Made by a program: the position numbers and the translations under genes
Part shown: positions 5,305 through 44,273 of the stretch, one piece after another
Numbering within the stretch: the stretch's first letter is position 1
How the letters are laid out: every line of letters starts with the position of its first letter
The notes under the pieces: generated by a model
The model's database searches: none
Told to the model about the DNA's origin: nothing
The model's input: the letters and a program-made list of their open reading frames with translations, nothing else
Assembly (NCBI GenBank): GCA_019054805.1
Contig: JAHQIY010000002.1
Coordinates: 5,456,001 to 5,520,000, forward strand
Direction: 5' to 3'
DNA length: 64,000 nucleotides
DNA from: Brachionus manjavacas
Lineage: Eukaryota > Rotifera > Eurotatoria > Ploima > Brachionidae

Positions 5305-5431
5305 ATGTTGACTTCCAATTATAAGATTATTCTCTTGAAGGTAAAACATTAGTTGGTCCCTGACAACACCTTCTAGTACTTTACATGCAACTGAGGTGAG
5401 TGATACGGGTCGATATTTAACAGGCTCTAAT
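5305..5431 (-). repeat. Perfect 127-bp inverted copy of LINE bases 4015-4141
   Basis: By direct comparison, these 127 bases are the exact reverse complement of 4015-4141, which encode the RT block around YRPVSLTSVACK. No mismatch was seen although the parent LINE is badly decayed. The inverted piece sits between the end of one LINE and the start of another LINE fragment. This could be a 5' inversion of the twin-priming type seen in LINE insertions, a recent inverted duplication, or a foldback artefact of assembly. Confidence 0.9.
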
Positions 5432-5439
5432 CCGAACTA

Positions 5440-6460
5440 ATGATGGGGGAAGACGACTCCAGGAGTGCACTAGCTTACGTCGACACAGAAAAGGATCTGG
5501 GAGTTACATTATCACGTAATTTGAAATTTTCTATTCATATTAAAAATCAAGTGAACAGAGCTACCGGAATACTCGGCCAGTTGAAAAGATCATTTAGATA
5601 TTGGACTTTAGATACCTGCAGGACCCTTTATTGTGCCTACGTTAGACCTCACCTGGAATATGCCGCTGTTGTCTGGTCCCCCCCTAGCAAGAAAGACGCA
5701 AAGATGCTCGAGCAGGTGCAGAGAAGGGCCACCAAACTGGTGCCCTGCATTAGAAACTGGCGCTACGAAGACCGTCTTGCCGTCCTTAGACTAACTCCCC
5801 TTCATGAGCGCCGTGTACGTGGAGACCTGATCCAGATGTTCAAACTCACCAAAGGCATCAACGAAGTGAGCTGGGTGAATCCCCCGGTTCCCGCAAGTTC
5901 ACTTTCCCAACCCGGACCCGCCGGAGGTATCAGAGGTCATGCAAGAAGATTGTCCGGCCAGGCCTCGACCAAATGTCTTCAAAGAGCAAACACATTCACC
6001 AACAGGATAGTCAACGAGTGGAATGCCCTACCAGCTACAGTCATAGACGCCGACTCGGTCAACAAGTTCAAGAACCGATACGATACCTTCATGTCCAGTC
6101 AACAATCATGAATAGGAGCATTTATTTATAAAAAATCGGATCAAAAAGAAAAGAATTTTGAGTTTCCTTGATTGTGGTCTTTGTGGAGCTAGATTGGTCT
6201 GGTTGATTTGCTTGATTGGATCGGTCTAAGTCTAGCATAGAAAAAAAAAGAAAAAAAAGGAAAGGAAAGAAAAGAAAAAGAAAGAAATAGAAAAAAAGAA
6301 AAAGATTAATTTAAAATTCAAATGCAATGGTGATGTAGTGTATGTAGCAAATGAAAGTGTGAAGTAGTATATGAATGTTTTTTTTTTTTTTTTTTTTTAG
6401 CTTGTTGTAACTTATATTATTATTATTTATTATTATTTTGACCTAAAAATTTAAACAGTT
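5440..6460 (+). mobile_element. Second LINE fragment: intact RT C-terminus plus 3' UTR
   Basis: Bases 5440-6111 are an open frame of 223 codons matching the C-terminal part of CR1/Jockey-type RT proteins. It shows EKDLGVTLSRNLKFS, YCAYVRPHLEYAAVVWSP, MLEQVQRRATKLVP and the terminal FTNRIVNEWNALP...VNKFKNRYD. It is uninterrupted and clearly richer in G+C (codons such as GCC, GTC, AAG) than the surrounding DNA. It is a different family from the element to its left, which has other residues at the same motifs. Downstream come a purine-rich stretch at 6240-6305, a T-run near 6380 and a TTA-repeat tail at 6414-6438. The tail is typical of LINEs that end in short tandem repeats. It is 5'-truncated and so cannot move by itself. 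Confidence 0.85.
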
Positions 6461-9389: not shown

Positions 9390-11290
9390 CATATCAGATC
9401 TTAAAAAAGCTAAGAAACAAATATAAACTAATTAGGACAGTACACGCATACGCAATTCGAATTATAGAGAAAAAGGCTCCTACCGGAGTAGAGGTTACCG
9501 ATACTTTAGCTGTGTTTTCAGACCACGACCCACTATATTCCTCAACAAGTAGCTTAATGAATCTATTTTTATAAGAGAAACATTTTAGCATATGTTAGGT
9601 GCGCAAGATGTTCTTCAAATGTCTTCAAATGTCTTGTCTATCTAGATGATGACATCATCTAGATACACAAGGCAGTATAACCATTTAAGACCCCCAAATG
9701 CCGCGTACATGTACCTTTGAAAAGTAGCGGGAGCGTTAGTTAGGCCAAAAGGCATTACAAAGACCTTGATGACTAATCTTGATGACTTGATGATTTAACT
9801 TCCGTTAAATCGATGGTTGAGAAAAAAAAGATTGCCCGAAGGCATCCAAATAGTCATCTATCCGTGGCAGTGGATAAACGTCTCTTTTTGTTACTTTATT
9901 TCATTCCCTGTAGTCTATACAGAACCGGGTCGTACCATCCTTTTTTTCCTACTAGAATTACTGGGGCTGCCCACGGACTCTTCGATGGCTGGATAACCTT
10001 TAGGTCAAGCACATCCTTAATGTGTTGCTCAATCACCTTTCTTTCTGTAACTCCTGTTCTGCGCGTTGAAAACTTTTTTGGTAAACTGTGTCCAGTTTCT
10101 ATTGTGTGGATTACGTTATCAGCAGTTCCTGGTTTTTTGAAAATAAATCTTTATTTATAGACAGGAGTTTCTTAAAAATCTTCGCCTCATTTTCTTTTAA
10201 ATGCATCTTTGTTTCATCTATACCTTTAGGTAAAACAATCTCTTCCTCTCCTTCAACCTTTTCTTGTTCCGTCAAGTCCTTTTTGGTGCTTTCCTCATTC
10301 ACATTAAAGTTTAGCAAATTATAGTTCTTCCTCTTAAAATTTTTCAGATGCCCTAAAATGGTACCCTTAGGTAGACAAACTGTTTTCTTAGATAAATTTG
10401 ATACGTTTGACTTAATCTCCTCCCCGTACTCTATGATACCCTTAGCTACGAAATCACCAAGCCTCTCTACTAGATAAGGGTTGTTTTGGACAAGAACATC
10501 CAAAAGGGTTTATTAGGCTTAGTAATGGTAACATAACTGCAAAAAGAAGGAATAAAAATATCTTCAAGTGAATAAAGGTAAAAAAGTCTTGATTCTAAAA
10601 TACTGGGGTCATAAAGATCATATTCTGGATTTAAGCTAACAGTTTTTGAACTAGGCCTTATAGCCACGTCAAATTTCAGTACGAAGTCCATACCAAAAAT
10701 ACAATCATAGTAACTTATGTTAACTTATCAACTACATAAAAATCAACTAAATATAAGTCATTGTGAATTTCTACAGGTAGAATCACCTTGGAATGTGCTG
10801 TTAATTTAGATTCATCCCCTAATTGAAATTCACATGACTGCTTTAAAGGAGTTATTTCAACCATTTTCCTCGTATTTTTAAGAAAATCTTTTTTTACTAA
10901 ATTGGTACTTGCACCGGTATCTAAACAATTGTTCAACGGGAGTCCAAAAACTTGAGCTGGAAGTTCTATTAACTTAGAAGAAATTATCTTAAGGCTGATT
11001 GTTTTATGTACATTTAAATTTGTTGGGTCGTTACTGAACTCTTCAGGGTACAGGTGAGAAAATGGGGCATGGTATAAAAATGGGTCATAAAAAGAATACG
11101 AGCAAAGTTGATGTAAGTTTATTGGGTCAGAAGAAGTAGTAGTAGTAGAATTAACAAAATTATTTACGTCTGAATTGTTACTAGTGGGCTGAGACTGTAC
11201 TGAATTTGAATTTGATTTTGCTTGTGGACATGTTCGTTGTAAATGACCGGTCAGATTGCAAATATAACATCGTCTAGGTCCATAAAGATA
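9390..11290 (-). mobile_element. Ty3/Gypsy-like LTR retrotransposon fossil
   Basis: Minus-strand remains of an LTR-type retroelement, in the order gag zinc knuckle, protease, reverse transcriptase. The nucleocapsid-like knuckle (CYICNLTGHLQRTC) lies near 11230-11275. The aspartic protease active site (DTGAS) lies near 10905-10920. The linker that precedes RT is near 10111-10500, and RT signatures [12 protein letters not shown] and YLDD lie at about 9640-9760. This order and the YLDD box fit the Ty3/Gypsy group. No LTRs, integrase or RNase H were recognised. The element is broken in several places and looks moderately old. Confidence 0.8.
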
Positions 11291-13415
11291 AAGGTACTAA
11301 TACTTAGGGAATTATGTCAATATTCGGTTTAAGACACCACACTAACATAAAAAGCATCAAAAATTTTAACTTGTATTGTATTTAAATTTATTTTGTAAAA
11401 TAAAATGACACTAGATGACCCCCTTTATGGTATACTTTTTTTTATTTTTAAAAATTTATTTCATTAGATGTGTAAGATTGAAATATAATATTTAAAAATT
11501 ATTAAATTGATTTAGAAACTTTAATAATGAAAAATTGAAGATGAAATTTGAGGATATGAAATTCAACTCAATTACCAAATTCAATTACCTTTAAAAAATT
11601 TTAAGAACAAACCGGCTTTTCTAGTTCTTAAGATTTAAAAAAAAATTAGAATCATTTTTTAACAGTATGATGGAAAACACTTTAAATGAGAAATCGAGAA
11701 GCAAGTCCATTTTCACTAAAATTCCAAGATGAAAGAGAACGATTTTTTGCATTTTTTTTTTAATTAATTTTTTCCTTTTTTTTCTTTATTTTCTTTTTTT
11801 TAAGAAAGAAATGTTGAATTTTTAAATGTTTAATGTTTAAATATTCTATATTTAAATGCTTTATTTTTGTTTTGTTTAATGTTTATTTGAATTTTGTAAC
11901 CTTCTTAGAATTTAAATTTATTTTAATCCGATTAAAATTCATAATATTTAAAAATTAAACGGGGTCTCGGTGGAACACTTACACAGAGTTTCAGGCTTGT
12001 TGTCAGTTAGGTTTTTTGAAATTCAGTAGAAAATGATAAAAAGAACAGAAAAAATGTAAAAAAATTGAATAACTTTTTTTCTAAAAGTTAAAACTAAATT
12101 CATAAATGCAACTTAGTGCAAAATTTAAAGTTGCATCAAATATTAATTTCTGCTAAATTCTGCAAATTTAGCAGAAATTAAATTACAATATAATCGAGCG
12201 TATGGCATTTTGCAGAGATTTTGCACATCATAAACAGAACATTTACAGTTGGTGCAACTTTGAATGTTGCACCATGCTGCATTCACAGAATAAATTTTTT
12301 ACTTTTATAAAAAAAGTTATTTAATTTTTTATTCCTTTCTTTTGTTCTGAACTTCACATAACCTGACAGTTAGAGAAATATTATTTAAAATGAAAATTGA
12401 AAAAAATGAAAGTACAGAAAAGATTTTTACATTTTATTATTCTCATTGTCTTTACCTCATTGCAGATTTTAGTGTTTTAGATTTGAGCAATATTTAATTT
12501 AGGATAACTTTCCCTGAATGTTCGAATTTCTAAATTTTACCGTTTTTACAATATAATGCTTCTTTAAGGGAAGAGATAAAAATAAAAATAAGAATAAAAC
12601 AAAAATTAAAAAAAAAATCTTAAATTAGCTAGATAATACGTTGAATTTAGAATTTTTGAAAATATTATAATTAATGCACTAACATTTTTGATAGAATTTT
12701 TGCATCAAGGTTCTGAGAAAAATTTGTATGTTTAATTTCATTAAGTTTATTTTTAAATTTATTTAATTAGTTAATTTTTTTATTTGTAAAAAAATAATTA
12801 GAAATAATAAGAAGATAAGATTTATTTATTCAAAATATTTTTTGATTTTTTTATTTTTCATATATTTTTGCACATATTTTTCAATAAAATTAAATTTAAA
12901 AAAAAAGAAAGAAAAATTAAGAATTTAAAGTTACAGTAAAGATAGAATAGAAAGAAAAGCTAAATTTTATCCCTTTTTTTTTATAAGTGCGAGAATATTT
13001 TTTCTTTCATGTTTAAATTTTCAGCTAAGATTTTCTCACGCTTATTATCTTCATCTAAGATTTTCACACATTTGATTTTTAAATAGTAAGATTATGTGAA
13101 TTTTGGAACAAATTAAAAAAAAACAAAAATTTTAAATGCAATTACTCTTTACTATAAGTCTAAAAATTAAACTTTGCTCCAAAATTCCAATTACTAAATA
13201 AAATAAAATGTTCAGAAATTAATTATGGGTTCCTTTGAGAGGATTTTTTAAGCTTAAGATTTTTTATTTTTTATATTTTAAGGTATTTTTGCTTTTACAG
13301 AAATAAAAAAAATAAAATTGAATTTAGTTTATTTTAAAGCTATCTGTTATGATATTAAAGATACTAAACATGATCAATATTTGATTTAAAAGATAATCTC
13401 AAGGAAAACTAATCA
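11291..13415. other. Gene-free A+T-rich spacer with one MITE
   Basis: No coding potential seen apart from the inverted-repeat element at 12009-12364. The rest is homopolymer-rich sequence. It lies 3' of the ABCC gene on the minus strand. Confidence 0.45.
12009..12364. repeat. MITE family A, copy 1
   Basis: A non-coding element with long imperfect inverted ends. The left end (AGGTTTTTTGAAATTCAGT...) and the right end (...GAACTTCACATAACCT) are reverse complements over at least 75 bp. Inside are a small palindrome (CTGCTAAATTCTGCAAATTT) and a conserved core around ATAATCGAGCGT. Two more copies lie at 44274-44628 and 55888-56739. There is no transposase, so it would depend on enzymes supplied elsewhere. 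Target duplication could not be settled. Confidence 0.75.
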
Positions 13416-22242: not shown

Positions 22243-22385
22243 CTGCGGGATAGTATTTTAAAATAACTTTAAAAATAATTCAAAAGATAAAAACTTAAAT
22301 TTTAACTAATTTTACTTAACTAATTTTATTTAACTAATTAAAAATATAAATGTTTTCTTGATGAAAATTTAAATAAATTTAAACC

Positions 22386-24575
22386 TTAATCAATCCAAAT
22401 TCGCCATAAAATTCTTTTACTTAATTCAGATTCATCGACATATGCATTTCTGTCATGAGCAATCAAGCCATTTTCAATTAAAATTACTTGCCCAGGCTCA
22501 AGCTTAAATGACAGCTGATTTTCTTCCAATATTTTGTCCAATTTATCCATTGCTTCAATTATTGCAGGACTTATTTCTTTATTCATATTTTTATATGCCA
22601 ATTCTATCCATTTACGCATGTATCTAAATTTAAAAGGTTCGCAAGAAAAAACTGGGTATTCATTAGCCATCTCTTGATCTTCACGAGTATGTTGTTCTCC
22701 AAAACCTGTGGTAATTAATGAACGTTTAATTGGTTCTGAAAGAATTTTCACCAAATGTGGATATTTTTTTTTCATCTCAATAAAAGCATTATATGCATTT
22801 GATAAATTTGTTTCGCCTCCGATTTCACTTTGATTTACGCACATAAGACCAACAATTCTAGGAAAATAGTCTTTGCTACTTCCGTCAGTATGAAAACCAG
22901 ACGACTGATTTGTCGCACTTAAGAGCACATTTTTTCTGTTTATATCAAGTTTACGGTCAAAAACTTCGTATACTTCACCACGTCGTGAGCTAATTGTTCC
23001 AAAAATTTTCGATAAAGATACCAGAAATTCTTTCTCAATTGGACATTTGTCAATTAAAACACAGCCATTTTTCTCAAATGCCGATTTCAATTCTTCAGCA
23101 TTCAGATTTTCATATGAAATCTTTGTCAAATTTAAACCCATCGGATATCTTGTTTCTTTTATTAATTCAAATTCAATATGCAACGGAGCGTGCTTTATGG
23201 GTGACAAAAAATTAAATTGACACAAGAGCTCTTCATCGATACCAAATTCTCTAAATTTTTTCAACCTAAATTCATCGAACATTTCAAAATAATCTTGAAT
23301 AGTCTTGTGAACATTTCGAACATTCAATTTTTGTTTATTGTCCAATTTTGTTATAATACCCTCATGAAGTTTGTCCCGGTCATTGAAATAATTTTTCACA
23401 TTAAAGTAAAATACTTCATTAGGCTCGATCATTTGAGAAAAACAAGGATGTGGAACTGAAAAAAGCAACTTTCCGCCTTCCTTGAGAGCTCTAAAACACT
23501 TTCGAATAACAATGTATGATTCCTGTATTGTTAAATAGTTGAATAAAAACACTGCTATTATCATATCCCAATTTTTGCCAAAGTCAAAATTTAAAACGTC
23601 ACCAACAAAATATTTAATATCATCATCATGTGATTTAGCAGCTTCAATCATTTTTTCGGAGATATCGATTCCGGTAACCACAGCTCCTTTTTTACTCAAA
23701 ATTCTTGCACAGTATCCCTCACCGCATCCTAAGTCAAGAATTTTTTGGCCATTTACTTCTAAATTTTTAAACATGGGAGCTCTAGCGGTCAAGTCTGACA
23801 AGCACCCAACTTCTCGGTTCCAATTGAATGCTTGTGAATTATACAATTCCTCAGTGCTTTCCATTTTTTTTGCCATAGCGTCAAAAAATTGTGTTCTTAA
23901 CCTTAGGGCTACTTCCATTCCAGTTTTCAGATCCTGTCTACCCTGTTCAGAAGCAGCAAATTTAATGGCAATTTTTTTCAGTGATTCAGCATGGTCATCA
24001 TCGAAATAAATGTGTAAAGGGAAAAAAATATAGTCCTCTGGCTTTAGATTAGTATGAGTTTTGATGGCGTCGAGAATTTTTTTATAAATTGGTTTTACTA
24101 TTCCCTCAGTGCCTAGACTAAGAGCGCCTAAACCCAAAGGCGCGTTTTTTCCACAAATCGTAAACATTTCTTTAGTCCAATTTTTAACCTCACTGCAGAA
24201 CAAGCTTTCGTCGTCAAGTAGATTCATTTCTACCCCAATTTGTCTTTGAAATATTCGGAACAGTTCAGTATGTCTTACATTTTTGACTAATTGTGGTTCT
24301 ATGCCACATTCTAAGAGTTTTTCTTCATCAATAAGACCCATTTCTTCTTCAATATTTTCTTCTAAAATATTTTTTTCATCATCGTCCAAATTTTGCATCA
24401 ACAACTTTAAATAGCTGACAAAATGCCTCGAGTACCAGGAATATTGAAAAGCGAACAGTTTTAAGGCATGACTTGCATCTTTAAAATTGAAATCCAAAAA
24501 TCTATGATTTACGGCTTCAGATTCAGATGCAATTTTCTCAAGATGGTCAATGTATTCTAATTGATCGGTTTTCAT
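22386..24575 (-). CDS. Tri-domain enzyme: diiron oxygenase (HDO)-SAM methyltransferase-TauD dioxygenase
   Basis: A single uninterrupted 729-codon frame starting at an ATG (24573-24575). Residues ~1-235 form a haem-oxygenase-like (TENA/PqqC-fold) diiron domain. The expected six ligands are visible: Glu78 (EEEMG), His102 (RHTELF), Glu157 (LGTEG) and the HxxxDxxH box His188-Asp192-His195. Residues ~250-470 are a class I SAM methyltransferase with motif I DLGCGEGYC (281-289), acidic GIDIS and the HPCF loop. Residues ~485-729 are a TauD/clavaminate-synthase-like Fe(II)/2-oxoglutarate oxygenase. It has His562-x-Asp564 (FHTDGS), distal His707 (GLIAHDRNAY) and Arg722/726 for 2-oxoglutarate. All three active sites look intact. 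In bacteria such enzymes usually act in natural-product or amino-acid tailoring. The combined product here is unknown; successive oxidation, methylation and hydroxylation or desaturation of one small substrate is an inference. It has no introns, signal peptide or membrane segment, so it is likely cytosolic. An AATAAA lies 55 bases past the stop (22325-22330). Bacterial origin by transfer is likely. Confidence 0.92.
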   Translation of the reverse strand: MKTDQLEYIDHLEKIASESEAVNHRFLDFNFKDASHALKLFAFQYSWYSRHFVSYLKLLMQNLDDDEKNILEENIEEEMGLIDEEKLLECGIEPQLVKNVRHTELFRIFQRQIGVEMNLLDDESLFCSEVKNWTKEMFTICGKNAPLGLGALSLGTEGIVKPIYKKILDAIKTHTNLKPEDYIFFPLHIYFDDDHAESLKKIAIKFAASEQGRQDLKTGMEVALRLRTQFFDAMAKKMESTEELYNSQAFNWNREVGCLSDLTARAPMFKNLEVNGQKILDLGCGEGYCARILSKKGAVVTGIDISEKMIEAAKSHDDDIKYFVGDVLNFDFGKNWDMIIAVFLFNYLTIQESYIVIRKCFRALKEGGKLLFSVPHPCFSQMIEPNEVFYFNVKNYFNDRDKLHEGIITKLDNKQKLNVRNVHKTIQDYFEMFDEFRLKKFREFGIDEELLCQFNFLSPIKHAPLHIEFELIKETRYPMGLNLTKISYENLNAEELKSAFEKNGCVLIDKCPIEKEFLVSLSKIFGTISSRRGEVYEVFDRKLDINRKNVLLSATNQSSGFHTDGSSKDYFPRIVGLMCVNQSEIGGETNLSNAYNAFIEMKKKYPHLVKILSEPIKRSLITTGFGEQHTREDQEMANEYPVFSCEPFKFRYMRKWIELAYKNMNKEISPAIIEAMDKLDKILEENQLSFKLEPGQVILIENGLIAHDRNAYVDESELSKRILWRIWID

Positions 24576-28083: not shown

Positions 28084-31000
28084 TTATCTGTAAACGATGT
28101 TATTTGCTGGAATATTTTGAATATTAGGATCAGTTACATAGACATAATTTTGGGAATCTAGATAATTGACCGGTTGCTGGATATACTGAGGTTGTGCCAT
28201 GTATTGTGGTTGCGTGGGCATATATTGAGTCTGCGGTAAATACTGAGTTTCTGGCTGAAGTATATATTGAACTTGAGGCTGTTCATAAGTCTGGGGCTGA
28301 TTGGCATAAACTATTTGTGGTTGCTGATAGACATACTGTTGTTGTGGCTGAGCATACATAACTTGGTTAGCTGGTTGTTTTCCGTATACATACTGTGGTG
28401 ATTGACCCCGATCTACATAAACTACATTTTTTTGAGGAGGGTCATCGACATAGATTACTTTTTCCCTCTGTTTTGGTGGATCGTCAACGTAGATAATCTT
28501 TTCCCTTTGCTTTGGTGGATCATCAACATAGATTATCTTTTCTTTTGGTTTGGCTCTAGGTCTGTGCACAACTTGGACAAATTCTTCAGGATCTTGGTCA
28601 ACTACCAATGTTCTCTGCAAGTCCTCATCTGAATTTACACGGTACAAAGGCTGTAGTTTTACCGGTTTGCGCGAGCTTACGATAACTTTTGGCTCAGGTT
28701 TCTAGAAAATAAATTTATTTAGTTGAATGAACAAATCAATTTAAATTTAGATAGATATTTGATACAAATCTTTTGAAAAATCAAGTGCTTTATGAAAAAG
28801 AGTTCAAAAATTCAAAATTTTTTGAAAAATACCTTTATTTTTATATAAACGTCGTCGTATTCTGGTATGTTTTTTTTCCGTTGTTTCGGAATTGAATTTT
28901 GAAACCCTAAGTTCGGTAGCTAAGTATTATTAAGACTTGTGCAATTTAGGGCTTATGTTTATTTTGAGTGAAAAAATAACTAATCTTGTTTAGAAGTTTA
29001 TTATTTGGAAATGAAAACATCCTTTTGAAACAAACTTCAAAAATTTAATTATACTTATTTGGCTTCATGATAAAAAAACTGTAATGTTTCTTTATGGTGG
29101 TAAAATTTAAACTAAAAATTACGCATTTTTTTAAAAAATTTGTTAAAGTTCTTTTATTAAAGGGTGTAGAATAATTAAAATAAATTGTTATTTTATTTTT
29201 CTAAAACTATCTATGTAAAGCTATTAAATAATCATAAAAGATTTAAGAAAAAATTGAAGGACAAAGCTTTTTTTTTAAAATTATAAATAAAATTGTTTTA
29301 ATTATATTTCTAAAAATATGACTTATAAGCGTAAACCGTTTCTCCGATTTGAAATTTGTATTAATAACATTTTTCGAGTTTAGATAAAAAAAATTTGATC
29401 AACCAAAATTTAAAAGCTTTTTTACTAAATCTTGATTTTCAAATACTGCTATCAAATTTCAAGAAAAACCTTTAACCTTTTAATATTTATATGTGATTTT
29501 TTAAATCTTTTAAAATGACTTTAAAAATAGATTGGCCTTCAAAATTTAAATGAGAAATGTTAAAACTATTAGGATTTTTTATGATATCTATTAAACCCTT
29601 CATTTTTAAAATTTAGATTTAAATTAAAAATTAGGTTAAATTATTTACCAAAATGAATTTTTTCCTAAATGACATTGTTTTTTGCAATTCAGACACTTGT
29701 AATTGAGAAAAATAAAAAAATTCGAGAATAAAATAAATCTAAACGTAAATTTTCAGTCAAAAATAAACCAAAAATTTGTTTTAAATTCTCTTTTCTACGA
29801 GCCCAAATTTCCCATTTAATATTTAAAAGTGAAACAAAAAATTTGTTTACCTTAATCAAACATTAAAGCTAATTTAAAAGAGAAAACTTAAAATAATCAA
29901 TTTTTTGTAATCAGTTTTTAATTTTAGACACTTAATAAATTAGTACTTTTTTAAAATTTTTAAATGTGAATAATAGTAAGTGGTGTGATTTTTAATTTTT
30001 CAAATTGAGTTAATCTCAACAACTACAAAAAATCGCATGAGTGTTTTATAATTAATAATTAATAAAATTTTAAAGGGCAGTTCTCAATTGTCCAAAATTA
30101 ATAATTTCTAGTCATATTTTTACGTTAGTTATTTTTAGTAAAAAAATTAATTCAAAAAAGCTAACTAATGTAATTCAGAATAGTTATAAAATGCAAAGAC
30201 TTGTCATGATAACTGATCTTGTTTAGACTACTGGTTAAAATATTATTTATTCAAAAAAATATCTAAAAAACATACGTAATTTAATCTCCTCAATTATTTT
30301 ATATCTCTAAGATAATAATTTAAAGGAAGGGACTTAACATAAGTTTGAACTCTAAAATTACCTATTTTTGGAGTATTTATGAGTTTCCTAGACAATTAAA
30401 TTAGCAAAACATTATTTTTAATTCTATAATCAGTTTTACTAGCATTTATTTTACTAATTTCTGATCAGCAAGCTCGACAAAGAATTAATCAATACACTAA
30501 ATTTAAAAATTACTACTACTAATAATAATAATAAACTACGGTAAGGAAGTTTGCGAAGATGTCTCAATAAGAATATTATGTTTTTAAAAAAAACATAATA
30601 ATAAACATTAAATAATGCTTTTTTATTCGCAATTTTTCCTCAAAAAGATTGGTTCCAATTAGGTTGAATCAAATGAAACCAAGGAATTTGATTAGAACAT
30701 TATTTGTTCTTAAAGACAAAGTATCATTAAAACTTTTAATTTCCATATTTGACAGGTTTAAAAATGTCTTAAATTTTTTTTTATTTTTTTTTTTATTTTT
30801 TTGATGAAACAATTTTAACTTGAATTTTAGTAAATCAACGCGATGTAATTATTAATTTAACTTTGTTAAATTATTTTTAGAGAAAATGAAAGAATTTTAC
30901 TCAGTAAGAAATAAAATCTTTAGCCTTATTGTTTAAATACTCGAAGCCTTTAAAAATTTAATTTAAATATTAAAAAATTAATAAAAAAAGCATAACATTA

Positions 31001-32626
31001 GCTCGGAATGATGAACATTTTAAAAGAAAAAGAAAAGGTAGCGATTCTAAACAGAAAATTTTTTTTTCGAAAATCGAAAATAATTAGGCTTTATTTTTTT
31101 ATTACAAAATAAGCTTTAAATTTTTGTGCGATAAATTTTGAGAAATGAATCTTCCAAAAAGAGATAATTTAGTTCTGTAAAATGCTTATTATTTAAGCAA
31201 CTTTGCTCAATCGAAAAAAACATTTAACACCAAAAGATGTAATCAGATTCTAGCTTAATGAAGCTCCTACAATAAATAAATGAAAAAATTCTCCATATTT
31301 TTATTCACTTAGAAAAAATTTTAAATTTTAAGGTTTTTATCCTTTTTGGTCAATTTTGATTAATTATAATTTTCACTTTAGATGACTTAAGTACTAATTT
31401 CTTATTTATTTCTTAACTGACGATTCTGTTTAAAAAAATAAAAATTAAGCTATTACTTTTTTAATTTAATTCTTTAATTATAATTTTTAATTTTTTGAAG
31501 ACATAATTCTAATTATTTTCTGCCAAATTTTTGTTCTTTTGTTCTCATAATCTGAAGAAAAAAAATTTTTTGTTTTGAAAAAATATTAAAAATAAAAAAT
31601 TCAAATTTCTGTCTTATGATTTATTTTTAATTTCCTGATTAAATCAAATTGCAGATAAATTAATATAAAATAAAATATTTAATTTTTTAGTTGCATTAAT
31701 AAAACGAATTCTAAACTTGATAATAAAAATTATTTCATTCTGTATTGATTTACCAAATATCTCAATACTAAAATTCATTTTTTGTATTTTCGTTCAAGTT
31801 TTAAAATTAAAAAATTTTAAATATTCTAAAATATCTAACAATTCGATTGTGTTGTTGATCAAATTTAGATATTTAAAAAAATAATTAAGAAACTAGTTTT
31901 GATAGATTTATGGCTGATTATGGCGAATTAAAATAGTTCCAAACTAAAGACCACTTTGGAAAATAAAAGGGTGCATTAAAAAATTATAATCTTACGTAAA
32001 CAAAGCGGAGGATTTATTATCTAATGAGAGGTAAAAAATGAAAAAAACAAAAACTCAAGTACTTTAGCCGGTTTTCGCCGTGTTGTAGTGTTAGTGTATC
32101 CGCCAAAGCCACTTGAAATAGGCATTGCTGTAGGCTCAGGTGTTAAGTCAAGCTTATTTCTTGTATTTACTGGTGATGATGAGTATGGCTTTTTAAATTG
32201 GCCTGTAAAGTCAAAAACTTGCTGAGAGCTGGGTTTAACTTTATTCTGCTGAATAAAATTTTTATTTAAATTTCTACTTTTAATTTCGTTGTTGGATTTT
32301 GTTTCTGTTTGATTTTTATTTTTATTCATATAATCATAAAAAGTGTATAATTTAGGTTTTGTTTTTTTTGTTTGATTTGAGATATTGGTACTCTGAATTG
32401 ACTCGGCGTCTCTCGTCTCAATAGAGAATTCATCATCGTGTTGCTCACTCCAATCGAAACCTTCATTAACGTGAGCTCGACTAAATCTCTCGTTGCCGTT
32501 GTTTACTCCTTGGTTGTTAACATAACCATATTCGTAACCATTTTCATTTATATGTAAATTTGAGCTCAGATTTCTGTTTATTTTCAAAGGTAAATTGTGA
32601 TTGATGCTTGAGTTATTATAAGACAT
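28084..32626 (-). CDS. Unknown protein A with YVDDPP repeats; paralogue of neighbour B
   Basis: Exons recognised: 32063-32626 (starts MSYNNSSINHNLPLK), 28833-28906 and the terminal 28084-28701. The first exon is Asn-rich and disordered and ends with PKLYTFYDYMNKNK and TTTRRKPAK. The middle exon reads FQNSIPKQRKKNIPEYDDVY. The last exon has three near-identical copies of EKIIYVDDPPKQR and then a long Gln/Pro/Tyr-rich tail (QYVYQQPQIVYANQPQ). Gene B to the right has the same plan: SKLYTFYDYRDK in exon 1, QNSI at the start of exon 2, then a YVEE/VYVRH region. The two are therefore tandem duplicates. The 3.15-kb intron between 28907 and 32062 is exceptional here. The phase at its end does not match by one base, so a small exon is missing or a one-base error is present near 28902. 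No signal peptide, membrane segment or known domain is seen; function is unknown. Confidence 0.6.
28907..32062. other. Long intron of gene A, or intergenic DNA
   Basis: 3.15 kb of A+T-rich sequence with a short ATA/TAC microsatellite near 30508-30535. No exon, repeat family or RNA gene was recognised. Confidence 0.4.
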
Positions 32627-33308
32627 TAATTAAGCTAATTGGATTCTCTGCTGGCCAAAAATGTTTAATTATCTTGAAGAGTTTCACTTAAGAAAGCAAT
32701 TCAATCTTTTGAAGAAATTTCGAAATTATTTCTAAAATTTAATGAAACATTTATAAAAAAAACAAGTTTTAAATTATTCTGAAACTATACCAACAGTAAA
32801 AACTGATACTGATACTGATTTTATGAAACTATTGCCTTATTCAAATATTCGCGCTAAAGAAAACAACTCTTTCAAAAAGTAAAAAAATAATCAAAACGTT
32901 TATGACAAGAAATAGAAATTAAAAAAATATCCATTTGGTTTATCATTGAAAAAAGAGATTTGAATAAGAAATAATACTCTTATACAGATCTGAAAGAAAT
33001 TTATTTTAATGTTTCGCTTTAAGGTAATTGATTGCTTGATTGAAATAAAAAAAATTCGAAATAAAATCCAAGGTGCTGACGAAAATAGCTCCAAAAGTTA
33101 GAAAATATTAAAATTTTCAAAGTAATCATTTATGTTTAGTTTTTTTTGGATTTGGAAACCTATTTTTGAGTCGAATGTTACATTTTTTTATAATTTCAAA
33201 ACATCAAGAAAATATTTTAAAAAATTCAAATATTTTCTAAAAATCTTTATTAAAAATATTAATTTTAAATTAGTAGCCTTGGGGTTTTTAAAATAGAGAT
33301 TAAAATTT
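32627..33308. other. Spacer between genes A and B
   Basis: A+T-rich, presumably holding the 3' end of gene B and the promoter of gene A on the minus strand. No specific site recognised. A 64-codon minus frame at 32900-33094 is Phe/Ile/Lys-rich and looks like chance. Confidence 0.4.
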
Positions 33309-34025
33309 TCATCTGAAAACACTGTTTCTTTTAATGGTGTTGTATTTAAGTGGTGAATGAAAAGGAAGAGCTTGGATTGATTGTTGCATGGGAGCTAGTT
33401 GGACTAGTGATGGAGTTTTGGTCAGGATGGTTGGAGTTGGTATAACAAGTGGTTTGATTGTTGGTTGGTAAACATATTTTTGTGATGAATTTGGTATAAA
33501 AGATACTTCAGGCATTGAATGCCTCACATATACAATTTTTACCTCTTCTTTGTGTGGAGGTTCTTTTAAATGCAAAATTTTTTTTTCCTTTGAAATAAAC
33601 GTTCGATCAATATCTTCTTCATTATCGCTCTGGTCATAAGAATCTTCTTCTACATAAATTTTGTTTACGTTTTTCATTAATTGAGTTCTTTTTGGAGATA
33701 ATTTGATGCTGTTTTGCTTTATTTCAAGTGTTAATTTTTAATTTTTAATTAAAAAGAATCAAACTTTGTTATAATTTGAACTTGATTCATTCTCAGAAGA
33801 ATCCTCATCATCAAACTTGACTTTCATTGACTTTTTATCAATTTTTGGCTTGTAAAAAGCAGTTGATGTGTCCACATTTTTCTTTACTTTATCCCGATAA
33901 TCATAAAAAGTGTACAGTTTGCTATTACTTTTGACTACATTGCCATTTGAAGTAATTCTTATATCAGTCTGCTGGGCAGAGTCGATCATTAAAGGTGAAT
34001 CTCTTGCTGCTTTTTTCTTAGACAT
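33309..34025 (-). CDS. Unknown protein B, two exons; paralogue of gene A
   Basis: Exons 33765-34025 and 33309-33716, a 48-bp intron, 222 residues; the exon sum is a multiple of three. I chose the ATG at 34023-34025 (MSKKKAARDSP). The earlier in-frame ATG at 34049 would add a short hydrophobic stretch not seen in gene A. Exon 1 carries SKLYTFYDYRDKVKKN and an acidic end (DDEDSSENESSS). Exon 2 begins QNSIKLSPKRTQ and carries KIYVEEDSYD, KIVYVRHSMPE and a Pro/Thr/Val-rich tail. The KLYTFYDY motif and the exon layout are shared with gene A on the left, but the triple YVDDPP repeat is not expanded here. It is probably a disordered, lineage-restricted protein. No known domain is seen and the function is not known. 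Confidence 0.65.
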
Positions 34026-37000
34026 TTTTTTAAAATATAAAAATGACAAAATAACAAACAGCTTAAATAAGCTAAGAAGACTTGAGATTTCTAATCAATT
34101 TTTAGGTAAGCCAAATAAATACGAATAATTCAATAAACATGAATAATAAAAATATAGAACTCTAGGCTTTTTTTTAGAACAAATTTTACTTTTATTTAAT
34201 TTTTTTTTAAATTTTTTAATTAATAATAAAAATGTTTAAACAAACGCACATTGATGTTAAAACAGCTGAGTTGAAAAATATTATTTTTCGGAATTTTGGA
34301 TCTAATTCTCCTTCTTTATACCATTTAATCTTGACAAAAAATTTATTAAAATAACAATTAAAAATTTTCTAGATTTAAAATTACCATAAATAAATGAGAA
34401 CAATTCAATAAAAATATAAAAAATGTTGTCATAATATTCAATACTCTTGGTTTAATCAAAAATGAGGCAATTAATAATTCCTTGATAAATTAATAAATTA
34501 AAAATATAAAACAATTGACTTATTCAAAAACAAACTAGATAACATATTGAGTGACTAATATTGCTTACAGTCTGATTAATCCAGACTTCACGCATAAGCG
34601 TAGCAATTATCCTTATTATTATTATTATTAATTAATAAAATAAAAAATTTCAGATTTTTGGATGCTTATTTTTCATTTAGCTTTTGCAATAAAAGCCTTC
34701 CTTCAATTTTTCGATCACTAAACTTTTAAATTAAAACTTATGTTGTCAAGGGTCTTTGTTTGTTCCCTTTCTATTCAGGTGTCTTCGTTTAATTTATCTA
34801 ATTATAATCTTTATTACTTCTGAAATTAATCCAACATTTAAACAAGAAATTTGAAAAAAAGCAAAATTTTAGTTTTAACTAGTATCTCATCAACCCAAAT
34901 CCATTCGGTACCTTTTCTTTCTATTCAGAACTGGCGAATACTTAAAACCTCTAGAGCATGTCACATCTTGTTTTAATTATCTTATTCCCTTGTTCTATAT
35001 TAAACCGAAAAACTGCTTTGGTGCATACAATAAACATCATCTCGCTCATGTCAAAGCATTCTTAACTTAAATCACATGCACTAAAGATTCGTTTTAGGGT
35101 CCGCAATAGAATAAATTTTTTAACTTTAATGCGGTATTAAAGTTTTAGATTATTGTAAGTAATTAATTTTTTTAATTTTGCATTTAATCCAGGGCTATTG
35201 ATTAAATACATAGAAAAATTAGAAAAATGATTATTTTGCTTAGTTTCATGCTTAGTAATTTTATTTTATGAATTTACTAACACAATTTAATTTTAATTAT
35301 TTAATTTTCTTTTAAGTTAGATTAAGCTTTTACTTAATACTTATATTAAAAAAAAATAAAATCTTTAATCTCTATTTTGTCTCTATGTCGAGGCTGAAGT
35401 CATTTTAACAAAAAGTCTAGAAAATTTTTTGTAAATTAATTAGACCTAAAAGTTATTTTAAAAGTGTATATTAAATACAATATAAATTGATAATTAATAC
35501 AAATATTTATTATTTGCCTCAAAATTAAAAAAAGTAATAAAATTTTTAAATTCGTTCTATTATTTTAGATGTTCTCATCGTTTATAGCAGTGAATTGATT
35601 TAAATTAATTTCATAAGAACCAAATTCAGAAAATTGTGTTTAAAAGTAACTAAATAACAAGAAAAAGAAGAAGTAACTAAATAAAAGAAATAATAAAATT
35701 ATTTAAAATGAAAAGCTACAAGTCTTAGCAAATTGTTATCAATAATTTTTCGCAACTCTCAATCATTTCCATAAAGTGGTGATTTTATTAAATAATTAGA
35801 AAAATTTTGTTTTTGGATAGTCATATTGTAAATATTTTAAAATTTCGAATTTAAAAGCTCAATTTTCAAAAATTAAAAGATTAAATATTTTTGTGTTAAT
35901 TATTATTTAGTTAAAAAAATTAGATCAATAAAAAATATTAATTTTTTCAAATATAAACAAAATATTAAGCATAAAAAAACGCTGATCGAAACCTGATAAT
36001 AATAATATTGAATAAATAAAAATGAATAAAAAATAAAAATTCAGAAGTCAAAAACTACCTTTCTTTAAAAAAATTACAATCAAAAATCGAAGCAAAAACA
36101 AGTTAAAAAAGAGGAATTCTTATTTTCCATATTTTTTGTCCCAAAAACTAATCTAGAAAAAATTCAAAATAATTACATACTTTTCTTAAAGGCAATTTTC
36201 GTTTTTTTATTAATTAAAAGATCATTTTTTTCAAAAAAATGTACATTAGTCATTAAAATAAACATAAATTGCATTTTCAAATTTAGATGTAGTCTTTTTA
36301 ATTAAATCTTAATAGAAAAATCATAAATAAGATTTAAAATAAATACTCAGAAGTCAAAAAATTATTTTTTGTTGTTGGAAAATTTGCAACCGAATTAAAA
36401 AATAAGTTAATCAAAAAAGAGCCATTTTCTAGTTTCCTTTTTAGCAACAAAAAAAAAATAGACTAGATAAAAATTCTATACTGAAAGTAATTCTTAAAAT
36501 TTACTAACTTAGCGTAATCGAAAGTTTGATTTTTTTTGATAACAAAATATTACCTGTTTGGTCTAATTTTTTTTGGTTTTTCAAAGCCATAAAAGTTTAA
36601 ACAAAAAATAAATTTTAGAAAACTAAAAATGATGAACAAAAAATTTTCAATCAGAAAATGTTAAAAAAATTTAATGAAAAACATCATAATTAATGACGGC
36701 CCTTGATATGTATTAAAATGTATTAAAAACGTGTGGACTTACCTTTTAACTAAAGAATGATAAAAAATTTAATCACTTGTTCATTCGAAAACAGATTCAA
36801 AAAGATTTATAGCTAAAATAAAAAATACCAAAAAAAGTATGATAATGTGATACAATTTATTTAGCTAATCATTGTAAAGACCAAACAAAAAAAAAGCTTT
36901 TGAGGCTAATTTACAAAAAGCTTCTTGTTAAATTTTTAATAATTTTTGTTTAATCTAATAGATTTTAGTTAAATGAGATAAAAGTCTAATAGACTGTCCT

Positions 37001-39634: not shown

Positions 39635-41830
39635 TCAAACAAGTGACATTTTGAGCCTAAAAAAACTGTTTATCATCTTGTATTGCTCATTTTTATTCAC
39701 ATTGATGGGATATTTTGTCAAGACGGACCATTGGCGCGTATCTCTGTCAAAAGATTCAAGTTGAAAGAATCCATCCTCGTCGCCGACACCTCCAGTTACA
39801 ATCACCTGTGACTTGATCTTGAACACAAAGCTGTCATATTTATCATGTTTTAGAAGCAAATTGGGCAATCTGAGCAGTTTGTTTTTGCCCGGATAAAATT
39901 CATAGAGCAAACCTTGCTCGGGATTTAGGATAAAAATTAGGGCTTCTTTTTCTTGTCTTATCATGACTCGTTTGCACGAGCTCTCCTCGTCATAGTCATG
40001 TATGGTCGGCGATTGAAGCGAATTGCTCGATGTCGAGGACATCGACGGCGATTTGTCTTCAGAGTCCGAGTACCAAGAGAAGAGACTTTTTGTACTAGAG
40101 CTCTCCATGTCAAATTGAGTTAGTATATTGGCCGTTTTAAAGCTGACCGCTCTGGCTAGCACAAACCCACACAAATTTTTGGGCAGTCTAAAATAAGGCA
40201 GGTAGGAATTCACAGTTTGCTCATCGAACTCAAAACAATGTATACAGTTATCATTTAAGACATAAATCAAATTCTTTAGTCCAACAACCAATTTGGACTG
40301 TTCTATCTGAAAGCTGATCAAACTGGCCAAATCATAGTCTTGCACTTCGGCGCGATGGTACAGCGAGAAAAAATGATGGCTTAGTAGTGAATTATTCAGA
40401 AGGTTCACCTCTTTCCATTCGTCACTCTCAATGGTGTAGAATTCGATGGCCATTGATTGTTTGAAAAATTGTCCTGGTTCCAAATCTTCTTGGGGTTCAT
40501 TTGCAAGGCCGTACATGACAACGATATAATTCTGCTCTTTTGACTTAGATAAATGGATAGTGTGGTGAAAGGCACGCTTTGTCCGCATCGGACTCAAACT
40601 TGACCACTCATTTTTGACCGGATCAAACTTAAAGAGCGAGTTCTTGAGCTCTATTGTGTCCATTTTTTTTACCATGCCACCAATTACATACAGTATATTG
40701 TTCACTGTACACACTGAATATCCGTCAAACATTTGCTTAAATTCGTACTTGGACTTGAGTTGGGCAGGCGGCCAATTGACCAATCTGTCCCATTTTGACT
40801 TGCTAATATCGAACAAGTCAAAATTGTCCGCGGCCAAAGAACAAATGTAATCTTTGGGCAAAGTGGACGGTCTTATGTTCTCCTGACTGGACTCGAAGTC
40901 GCCAAGTGCCGATTCAATTTTTTGCTTCAAATGTTCATTTTGGTCAAGAATTTTGTCATTTTTAAAAATAAACTCCAATTCCTCTTTGCTTAGAGAATTA
41001 AGTCTCAAATGCTTGAACAACTGCTCATGAAGCTTGGACACTTCTTTTTGATCATTGCACTGGCTCTGGTACTCGATCCATTTCATTATCGAATAGTAAA
41101 CATAAATTTCTCTTTTCACATTTAGTTGGTCCGATGCGAGCAGACTACAGAATGTTTTTTGGTCCAGTCGGATAAAGGACGAGTAGAAATTTTCCTTGGC
41201 TTGCTCCAGAGAGAGATTGGACATGGGCTTCGAGTTAAGCTGGGCGAACACGTTGTCGCACGGTGGCTCGCTCAACTTTGAGTACAAATCAATGGTGAGG
41301 TCGATTAAAAGCCGGAAGTTTTCGAGTATAAATTGGTATGTGTAAGTCTGAAGGTCGCTGAGGCCGTGCATCGAGGCGAACAGGTAAATTTCGACACAAT
41401 TGCTCAAGTCGACATTCTGCTTGACGTAGCTGATGCATTTGTCGACCAGCTTGGACAGCTGGAAGAGCACAGCTGCGTTAAACAGCTCGATCACGTTCTC
41501 GTAGCTGATCTCAATTTTTCCTGTGTAGATGAAGTCCAGTAGACGCTTCATGGTCCACGGCGACATGTTCTCGATGAATACTTTGCCGTGCCGGCTCTCC
41601 TTGAGGTCGCATGAGAACATCGCCTGAAAGTATTGGCTTGATGCGCACAAGATTACTTTGTGGCACGGAAATTCTACGCCCTCAACGTAAATAAACACGT
41701 CTGTGAACAAATTTTCGTTCCTGAATTTGAACAGTGACTCGCATTTTTCGCTCTGAAAATCTTCGATGTAAATTTGGTCAGTGTGAGTTGACTGCGCCTC
41801 GACCATCATTGGTATAGAGCTAGAAAGCAT
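39635..41830 (-). CDS. BTB-BACK-kelch protein, intronless
   Basis: 731 residues in one exon, starting at the ATG at 41828-41830. Residues ~30-135 are a BTB/POZ domain (FTDVFIYVEGVEFPCHKVIL..., SSQYFQAMFS, LLDFIYTGKI). Residues ~140-310 form a BACK domain (LYLFASMHGL, ENF..L, SLLASDQLNVKRE, VYYSIMKWIEY). The C-terminal part holds degenerate kelch repeats (LYVIGGM near residue 385, VIVTGGVGDEDG near 690). They are split by a Ser-rich acidic insert (SEDKSPSMSSTSSNSLQSP). Proteins of this plan are usually substrate adaptors of Cullin-3 ubiquitin ligases, with kelch repeats binding the target. That role is inferred here. The absence of introns and the much higher G+C of the 5' half than of nearby DNA are unusual for this window and suggest a retrogene or strong codon selection. 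Kelch diglycines are present only in some repeats, so the propeller may be irregular. Confidence 0.9.
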   Translation of the reverse strand: MLSSSIPMMVEAQSTHTDQIYIEDFQSEKCESLFKFRNENLFTDVFIYVEGVEFPCHKVILCASSQYFQAMFSCDLKESRHGKVFIENMSPWTMKRLLDFIYTGKIEISYENVIELFNAAVLFQLSKLVDKCISYVKQNVDLSNCVEIYLFASMHGLSDLQTYTYQFILENFRLLIDLTIDLYSKLSEPPCDNVFAQLNSKPMSNLSLEQAKENFYSSFIRLDQKTFCSLLASDQLNVKREIYVYYSIMKWIEYQSQCNDQKEVSKLHEQLFKHLRLNSLSKEELEFIFKNDKILDQNEHLKQKIESALGDFESSQENIRPSTLPKDYICSLAADNFDLFDISKSKWDRLVNWPPAQLKSKYEFKQMFDGYSVCTVNNILYVIGGMVKKMDTIELKNSLFKFDPVKNEWSSLSPMRTKRAFHHTIHLSKSKEQNYIVVMYGLANEPQEDLEPGQFFKQSMAIEFYTIESDEWKEVNLLNNSLLSHHFFSLYHRAEVQDYDLASLISFQIEQSKLVVGLKNLIYVLNDNCIHCFEFDEQTVNSYLPYFRLPKNLCGFVLARAVSFKTANILTQFDMESSSTKSLFSWYSDSEDKSPSMSSTSSNSLQSPTIHDYDEESSCKRVMIRQEKEALIFILNPEQGLLYEFYPGKNKLLRLPNLLLKHDKYDSFVFKIKSQVIVTGGVGDEDGFFQLESFDRDTRQWSVLTKYPINVNKNEQYKMINSFFRLKMSLV

Positions 41831-44273
41831 TTTTGTTCAGAAATCTATTAATTAAATTTTTAATTGCTAAGATACAAAAATTTTTATTATTTATTACTGT
41901 TCACAAATATATTTATTTTTAATAAAATAGAATAAAAAAAAGAAAAAGAAAAAATTAAAATATGCAATTAAAATAAGCAGATATTTGGTTTTAATTTTTG
42001 AGTGTAAGGACCAGAGTGAAAAAATCGATAAGATCTCTGTTGGACTAAGTAAGAAAAAGTTAGAAAAATATAATTTTTGAAATATTAAATTAGGCAGTGA
42101 ATATTTTATTGAAATAATATGCGAATTTTGAACAAGCTATAGAAAAAAAATAAAACATATAAATTCAAATTGTTTCAATTCTTTATAGAGCTTGAATATT
42201 TTGGCTAAATAAACTTGATTATTCGATTTGCTTTGTGATTGAGTTATCCTCGGGAAAGAATTATTTTCTCGCTTTGTTTCCAGTTTTAATTCGAAAAAAT
42301 AAAATAATTCATAATTTTCAGTTTATGTCGTTTAAATTACGCCCTTAGGTCTACCAATTTCGGCATAATAAATTTTTGATTTATGTACTAAAAAATTGTA
42401 TTTTACGAAACATTTTTCTAATTTAAAAAATCTGCCTTAACACTTGATCATTTTTGTTTTCTAGCCAAAGAGATAAATTCAAAAACGTGACTTTAAACGA
42501 TCAAACTTGACTATTTGCTTAAAATTTAATTTGAAGCAGATATTTAAAAAAATAGACGACTTTAATCCTTGTTTAAGCATAATTCTTAAACAAAATTAAT
42601 TTTTTTTTTTGTCATGTGATCTCTATCAAGAATATCAAGACACAAATTTTAAATTAAAATAAAAAACTGTCTTCTTTGGTTCGTTATGATTTTATAAAAA
42701 GCTTTTTCTCTTTCATCCATTTTTAATTTTAAACACTCATTCAGAATTTGCTTTAAATTCTTTTATTCAATTGCCTGGATTTTAATGGACTTAAAAAATC
42801 AACAACCGAACTGCTTATTTGTTTTGCTGAAAATTTTTTTCGCAAAATAAAAAATGATTTTTATTTGCCTAATTTAAGGCTTTTGGAAATTTTGAAATTA
42901 TTTTTGTCACTTATATAATTAAAAGCTTTTTTTGCACATTTTTTAAAAATTTCAATTTTAATAAAAATGCTTAATTTAAAAGAGTTTTTTAACTCTTTAA
43001 TTTATTCTACATCAAGAGTCAACAAAACTAAAAAACTAGATTTTTAAAAAATGCAACGTCTGGAAACTTTTATTTATTTTGAGATGATTAAAAGTTCAAT
43101 TAAGTAATTCAACAAAACCTTTTTTTTTTAATTTAAATCGACATGATAAGACACCTCGAATGATAGGTAGTTTTTTTTAAACCTAAATTCTACCGAAAAA
43201 TGTATAAAATTTTTGAGATTAACCAAATATCAAATTTTAACACTAATTATTTACTGAAACAAAAAATCTATTAAGTTAATTTATTTCAAAAATTTTAGCT
43301 ACTCTATTTAATAACTAACAGCGTCAACGTTAAAATTAGAAATTTTCATTAATTTAAAATTCTTTCAAAAAACTAGAAAAAAAAACTTTTCATGTGAAAA
43401 CTTTTTTCCAGTTTTTGAACATTACGTCAATCATTCGAGAGGCCTCAGACAAAATTATACAATAAAAGATATTTATGAAGAATTTAATTCAATTTATTTG
43501 ACTTGATTTAATGCATTTTTGCCAAGACTCGTCAAAATCAATCTTATTTCCGCAATTTCTGTTTTATCTTAATATCAAAATTGAATGTTGAAACAGGAAT
43601 ATTCATGGAATATAATACTATTTTTATTTTAGTTCTTGATCGTAAATCAACTTAAAGTTAAGTATCTTCGTTATGAAAAAAGCTATTGAATCTTGGAAAA
43701 AGAGGCTGTTTTCCGGTTGAAAACAATCAATTGGATGCTATTAATCCTTTTTTAATCTACGAAGGAAAATATTAGATTTAGAAAATTAAAATATTGTACT
43801 TAAAATTAGTACCTATTGATAATAGGCTTACCAATTCGAACCAAAAATTACTAAACCTCAATTTTGGTACTAAAGCTAATTCAAAAATATCTATTTTAAA
43901 ATTTGAGTTCAACTGAAATAAGATTCGATGTATGAAAAATTAAAATGAATTTCAAATTTTATATTTTTTTAATTTTGTAATTAAAAAACGGGGTAAAACG
44001 TGGTTCAGTTTAGTCGATATATTAGTTGATATTTAAATTGGTCTCTTACATGAATTAATTTTACTTTGTATATCATGTACATTTATCAAATTGAATTTAT
44101 TACTTAAAACCTAATACTTGAGACTAGCTGTAAGTATTTCAATTGCTTAAGATGAAATTTTTCTCAATTATTTTTAATTTTTAGATTTTTTTAAAATTAC
44201 ATATTAAACTTTAAAAATAAATACTAAATTTAAATCATTTCAACTAAGTGAAAGTTCAAATGACCCATGATTT
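41831..44273. other. Gene-free spacer upstream of BTB-kelch
   Basis: 2.4 kb of A+T-rich sequence without coding signal. It should contain the promoter of the minus-strand BTB-kelch gene. No site recognised. Confidence 0.4.

Follow-up and report, generated by a model that had tools for sequence, protein, structure and literature searches.

A single uninterrupted reading frame in the rotifer Brachionus manjavacas (22386-24575, minus strand; 729 codons plus stop, no internal stops) encodes an HDO diiron oxygenase, a SAM-dependent methyltransferase (MT) and a TauD-type Fe(II)/2-oxoglutarate oxygenase in one chain. Coordinates are those of the window, the 64-kb stretch of DNA analyzed in this study. 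As judged from its sequence, the fusion is probably an animal tailoring enzyme with three functions, and it probably descends from a biosynthetic unit of bacteria. Its likely role would be to oxidize, methylate and again oxidize a small molecule, probably one resembling an amino acid. Pfam assigned three domains to the 729-aa protein, every one above its curated cut-off, which bears out the original prediction of three complete catalytic domains in one chain.

Read on the plus strand, the same interval contains 41 stops. When the window was shuffled 20 times by mononucleotides, no shuffle had a stop-free run above 136 codons, the maxima ranging from 95 to 136. A candidate poly(A) signal AATAAA (22325..22330, minus strand) lies 55 bases past the stop codon; it is weak evidence, as six AATAAA/ATTAAA motifs occur within the same 500 AT-rich bases. 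The gene is presumably expressed. Mean GC of the window is 26.7%. The fusion gene has a GC of 0.33 and a GC3 of 0.27 (HDO 0.29, MT 0.31, TauD 0.22), versus a GC of 0.515-0.65 across six bacterial loci. Its codon usage correlated at 0.90 with a pool of eight window ORFs from which it was left out (0.38 to 0.91 for the individual ORFs of the pool), versus 0.03 with two HDO/MT genes of Porticoccus. Animal-type genes flank the fusion gene on either side: a lipase gene (7.3-8.1 kb), a single-exon BTB-Kelch ORF (39635-41836, minus strand) and exons of a vitamin-K-dependent gamma-carboxylase (54.7-59.2 kb). Such a frame could be an artefact, produced by contaminating bacterial DNA or by separate genes joined during assembly, and it fits this explanation that HDO and MT are separate genes in bacteria and that the fusion gene has no intron. 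However, the frame runs unbroken across both seams, there is no N anywhere in the 64 kb, and GC and GC3 are low compared with the GC of the bacterial loci. Given the host-like codon usage and the animal-type genes on both sides, an assembly join is unlikely, and we regard an artefact of either kind as very improbable. The animal context of the three-domain protein thus holds.

No second copy of the fusion gene was found within the 64-kb window, which also had no match in Rfam and no predicted tRNA. The BTB-Kelch ORF has a GC of 41.7% inside the AT-rich window. By eye, a non-LTR reverse-transcriptase fragment (5431-6111, plus strand) and an LTR-element gag/protease stretch (10111-11296, minus strand) were recognized; the two ORFs scanned there had no Pfam match at 1e-3. 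A cluster of repetitive minus-strand ORFs, related by eye (28084-28701, 32021-32629, 33309-33737, and 33759-34094), has the motifs IIYVDDPP, YVYQP, and LYTFYDY in common. A Pfam scan of the first of these ORFs (28084-28701) gave no match.

HDO enzymes have been described from bacteria, where they perform unusual N- and C-oxidations, and their ligand rule is three His and three carboxylate residues (3H/3C) on the core helices (PMC13108848, available text). In the fusion the HDO domain occupies residues 1-233 (23877..24575, minus strand), with a Pfam Haem_oxygenas_2 match at residues 41-227 (1.2e-15). The 3H/3C set was found in this domain, and all six residues named in the original prediction (Glu78, His102, Glu157, His188, Asp192, and His195) are at the positions given there. 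These six positions were invariant in all rows of two alignments (4/4 and 3/3). E77 was also invariant in both, so the first metal ligand would be either E77 or E78. A seventh ligand, a carboxylate, has been described for SznF (3H/4C; PMC13108848, available text). In the fusion, acidic residues are present in segment 80-102, and none of the columns between G80 and H102 was invariant in four rows. Two-metal binding and O2 activation by this domain are putative.

Modelling of the structure, suggested along with the original prediction, gave a confident fold for the HDO part. The AlphaFold model, built from three sequences, has a mean pLDDT of 91.5. A Foldseek search with this model matched 27 chains of the PDB at E<=0.001. 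CADD of Chlamydia (query-based TM 0.72-0.75), BesC (0.74-0.76), and the N-oxygenase HrmI (0.72-0.74) headed the list; HamA (0.68), UndA and FlcD came lower. PqqC had the top TM-score (0.77-0.78) but a weaker E-value, and a TenA homologue was also among the 27 chains. Since PqqC is highest in TM-score, the fold by itself is no proof of diiron chemistry. A sequence-profile search ranked CADD (3e-12) and BesC (2e-9) ahead of a weak match to HrmI (0.003). According to the model, the HDO part has the HDO fold. CADD, BesC and HrmI have this fold and the 3H/3C ligand set in common with it, whereas identity in the structural alignments is 15-19%.

The MT domain (residues 234-470; 23166..23876, minus strand) matches Pfam Methyltransf_25 at residues 279-368 (4e-18). 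The motif DLGCGEGYC, noted in the original prediction, is present at residues 281-289, and the domain has the features of a class I SAM methyltransferase, i.e., a DxGCGEG nucleotide-binding motif and a Rossmann core. The AlphaFold model of the MT core is of moderate confidence, and with the full-protein model methyltransferases alone were among the best 50 Foldseek matches. Identity to the MT of bacterial genome G460 is 42%, and to all eight HDO-linked MTs of bacteria (see below) 35.1-41.7%; the remaining MTs in the fetched loci gave 24-30% over shorter stretches. Two further signatures, SVPHP (373-377) and VHK..DYF (422-430), lie in columns kept in 4/4 rows. By these signatures, which define the subfamily in the present analysis, the fusion MT is a member of the HDO-linked MTs.

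The TauD domain comprises residues 471-729 (22386..23165, minus strand). The Pfam TauD match at residues 481-727 (2.3e-28) spans profile positions 14-267 of 267. In an alignment with two bacterial relatives, the facial triad His562/Asp564/His707 was invariant in 3/3 rows, at the positions originally predicted, as were R721 and R725, which we take to be the 2-oxoglutarate-binding Arg pair after TauD. Among solved structures, those nearest in sequence are gamma-butyrobetaine dioxygenase, FrbJ, and TmpA (1e-8 to 4e-7). Most of this part of the AlphaFold model is below pLDDT 50, for want of aligned sequences; the TauD assignment, including a double-stranded beta-helix fold, is thus a prediction from sequence matches.

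Close relatives of the first two domains were found in bacteria as neighbouring genes. In 8 of 10 loci with a close HDO relative, from three lineages, the next gene encodes an MT; in the other two it is a cupin gene. The eight HDO-MT loci come from Porticoccus, six genomes of one family, and an Indioceanicola plasmid, and therefore are not eight independent cases. Order and strand of HDO and MT are the same in all of them. The pair on the Indioceanicola profundi plasmid consists of two adjacent genes, each about 35% identical to the corresponding part of the fusion. The Porticoccus sp. W117 pair came from a scan of genome contigs with two exact HDO peptide patterns, which returned two loci and would miss divergent relatives. 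Genome searches added G460, two genomes of its genus (G872, G873) and three of its family (G1223, G1224, and G1225). Nine sampled genomes matched an HDO query or profile at E<=1e-15; an MT adjoins the HDO in seven of them and a cupin gene in the remaining two (G691, G1143), a proportion biased toward HDO-MT loci by profiles built from HDO-MT members. The HDO stop and the MT ATG overlap by one base in 4/8 loci, and the other four have a possible MT start inside the HDO gene; two of these four (L004, L086) have a further possible MT start 8 or 15 bases past the HDO end. The three-enzyme combination of the original prediction thus stands as one chain, but not as a free combination, since HDO-MT is a pre-existing bacterial gene pair.

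The window HDO is 30.3-32.8% identical to the eight MT-linked HDOs, whereas its identity to the HDO of G691, which is cupin-linked, is 34.4%; a second comparison pointed the same way (37.0% for G691 versus 34.6%). Scores against the window were 101-120 bits for seven MT-linked HDOs (Porticoccus 120), 89 for Indioceanicola, and 112 for G691. Since the most identical HDO is cupin-linked, nothing in the HDO by itself assigns the protein to the MT-linked branch. By sequence comparison, the tie to this branch comes from the MT and the common gene order. No well-supported clade in the HDO and MT trees includes the HDO or MT of the window.

In 7/8 HDO-MT loci (L004, L032, L074, L075, L086, L087, and L088) the MT gene is followed by a gene for a ligase of about 900 aa. 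Compared with the G460 ligase, the other six show 43-67% identity along almost its full length. AMP-binding domains were present in all three of the seven that were scanned, together with a carrier (PP-binding) match below cut-off. For two ligases the top NCBIfam match was an acyl-CoA ligase profile (218 and 223 bits, cut-off 476), above the amino-acid adenylation profile (144 and 163 bits). An MFS transporter is next after the ligase in two genomes, G460 (scanned) and G873 (by reading). The HDO-MT-ligase operon is a candidate small-molecule pathway of its own. No ligase was found in the Indioceanicola locus, and none matched in the 64-kb window at E<=1. This comparison does not bear out the original prediction of a self-contained pathway: with the ligase present in most of the bacterial loci and not in the window, the animal protein may need partners elsewhere.

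No TauD match at E<=1e-3 was found in any of the 10 HDO loci (15.0-21.5 kb each), and none genome-wide in Porticoccus. Elsewhere, G460 has a weak, distant TauD match 0.2 Mb off and G872 has one on a different contig. With no TauD in the loci and a scatter of them elsewhere, these matches do not establish a three-gene operon as the ancestral state. In Indioceanicola, an ORF 1.3 kb past the MT gene (P0004, 12784-13626) looked like an iron oxygenase by eye; Pfam and PDB searches gave nothing for it at E<=10, it does not truly resemble the fusion protein, and it was not counted. The Indioceanicola pair itself (L001:5010-15589) adjoins flagellar-hook-like ORFs, by eye, and is near a glycosyltransferase, a TylF-type MT and a DegT aminotransferase (Pfam); the region is perhaps a glycan-modification island. 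On a Pantoea agglomerans plasmid (L002:7845-9845) an HDO domain is fused to a class III aminotransferase, annotated merely as ectB.

Neither phages, plasmids and viral contigs nor the one contig pattern scan and the sampled genomes yielded another chain with the three domains; the comparison set one host sequence against phage, plasmid, viral and sampled bacterial DNA. All 14 matching phage records matched via the MT part only, and among viral contigs there were no relatives of the whole protein or of the TauD part. The whole protein matched 611 plasmid records, and among the 40 listed only Indioceanicola had HDO plus MT. The HDO part alone matched four plasmid records at E<=1e-3 and the TauD part 17, from which we infer that the rest are MT matches. 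Most genome searches used the HDO part alone, and loci were read for the strong matches and a few weaker ones. HDO matches at E<=1e-3, mostly to distant HDOs, were obtained in 10/369, 9/145, and 24/398 genomes, and matches at E<=1e-15 in 2/385 and 6/21, with some genomes recurring between these overlapping samples. A whole-protein search of the genus of G460 matched 3/3 genomes. Among the literature matches listed there was no paper on an HDO-MT-TauD architecture, on an HDO with a methyltransferase, on the bacterial HDO-MT pair or on an HDO-MT-ligase operon. The domain order is thus without precedent in the sequences and literature covered, as originally predicted, although an exact-pattern scan is a weak test of whether bacteria have a protein with these three domains. 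Relatives of the fusion protein may occur in other animals. By sequence, each domain is of an already known kind, and among the loci sampled only the addition of TauD is without bacterial precedent.

The seams of the fusion coincide in the alignments with the ends and beginnings of bacterial genes. The first (about residues 234-243; 23847..23876, minus strand) corresponds to the junction of the HDO and MT genes in bacteria, whether these abut or overlap. The second (about residues 471-485; 23121..23165, minus strand) lies past the last residues that align with the C terminus of the bacterial MT. The likely history is that a bacterial HDO-MT gene pair was transferred, became a single chain, and gained a TauD domain. 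The transfer into the animal would have been horizontal. A small frame shift where the two genes touch or overlap would join them, and the TauD domain would have been added likewise or through a later fusion.

With all three domains complete and their catalytic residues kept, the simplest interpretation is an enzyme that tailors its substrate in successive steps; its chemistry, substrate, product and order of steps are proposed from sequence. The diiron HDO would use O2 to oxidize a small amine or a substrate resembling an amino acid, with N-oxygenation somewhat favoured over C-H/C-C oxidation. The MT would methylate the same substrate before or after this step. The Fe/2-oxoglutarate domain would then carry out a second oxidation, i.e., a hydroxylation or rearrangement, and the intermediates would travel along the single chain.

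Because of the ligase in the bacterial operon, the main rival of this proposal is a substrate bound to a carrier or CoA. An acyl group would be loaded by the AMP-ligase, modified by HDO and MT, and then hydroxylated by TauD. The homologous ligases after HDO-MT, with their AMP-binding domains, sub-cut-off carrier matches and preference for an acyl-CoA ligase profile, speak for this, as does BioC (malonyl-ACP O-methyltransferase) as the second-ranked MT profile. However, BioC is far under its cut-off (57 of 185 bits), and the ligase is missing from both the window and the Indioceanicola locus. Furthermore, the closest HDOs in the PDB (CADD, BesC, and HrmI) act on free or self substrates. We consider an acyl substrate possible but doubtful.

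TmpA, gamma-butyrobetaine dioxygenase and trimethyllysine dioxygenase are the best family matches of the TauD part, as would be expected in a betaine/carnitine-type pathway where the product of the MT, a trimethylammonium compound, is hydroxylated by TauD acting as a gamma-butyrobetaine/TmpA-like enzyme. The scores for the betaine-family profiles are far under their cut-offs (67/400, 58/415, and 44/268 bits), and about the first 110-120 profile positions are unmatched. FrbJ, which is not known as a betaine enzyme, matches about as strongly. The trimethylammonium cage of human gamma-butyrobetaine dioxygenase (GBBH), which we take to be Y177, W181, and Y194, aligns to Arg, Tyr and Ala in a low-identity alignment. 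With the cage positions not kept, a betaine substrate is decidedly unlikely. FrbJ, TmpA and gamma-butyrobetaine dioxygenase thus have in common with the fusion a TauD-type sequence and an HxD...H triad, but differ in the N-terminal part that the fusion lacks, in the aromatic cage of GBBH, which is not kept, and in their low scores. Least probable of all is a CADD-type p-aminobenzoate synthase, self-sacrificing and extended by further domains, even though CADD is the best HDO match both in sequence and in Foldseek E-value. CADD sacrifices Tyr27 and Lys152 (PMC13108848, available text). In a low-identity alignment these residues correspond to Leu27 and Ile167 of the fusion (Lys166 is adjacent), and the CADD-family profile scores 34 bits of 200. 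The absence of the sacrificial residues makes this function highly unlikely.

If the fusion is a tailoring enzyme as proposed, it would parallel the division of labour in streptozotocin biosynthesis. There, according to the available parts of two reports (PMC11705231, PMC11177257), arginine is first methylated by SznE; SznF then hydroxylates two nitrogens with its HDO domain and rearranges the product with its cupin. In both systems an MT, a diiron HDO and a mononuclear iron domain come together. However, SznE is a separate arginine methyltransferase, unlike the in-chain MT, and SznF ends in a three-His cupin whereas the fusion ends in an HxD...H Fe/2-oxoglutarate TauD domain. The domain order HDO-MT-TauD also differs from the order of the SznE/SznF steps. 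Membership in the SznF type of N-nitrosating enzymes was rejected, as the C-terminal domain is TauD and the missing cupin places the fusion outside the SznF family.

Among bacterial systems, the HDO-MT pair is the closest: it has a related HDO and MT in the same order with the same seam position, but as separate genes, mostly with a ligase next and no TauD. In a second group, more distant HDOs are fused to cupins in Lonsdalea quercina (L005:7848-9050) and genome G167 (L034:5411-6571), and together with G691 and G1143 a cupin was adjacent or fused in all four such loci scanned. Like the fusion, these systems have an HDO joined to or beside a second metalloenzyme candidate, and G691 of this group holds the HDO most identical to that of the window; unlike the fusion, they have a cupin in place of TauD, and no MT was seen beside them. 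The Lonsdalea gene adjoins ORFs that by eye resemble acyl-ligases and a hydroxylase system. In animals, horizontally acquired biosynthetic genes have been described from bdelloid rotifers (PMC11258130, available text), which is a similar case of foreign biosynthetic genes in a small animal, with different genes.

A bolder version of the tailoring-enzyme proposal is that the animal makes a reactive, bacterial-style natural product with one polypeptide, derived from a fused transferred operon, that methylates, N-oxygenates and oxidizes. The product could be, for example, an N-oxygenated, N-methylated amino-acid derivative with an N-hydroxy, nitroso or related group. This is speculative and at present rather improbable. 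More generally, the animal may use the fusion to make or modify a so far undescribed small molecule. An intact animal HDO in one chain with its bacterial partner MT and a second iron oxygenase would be an example of how two overlapping genes of bacteria can outlast transfer into a eukaryote by becoming a single polypeptide. The finding also points to a bacterial HDO-MT-ligase operon, and makes the fusion a testable candidate for the synthesis of an animal-made specialized metabolite.
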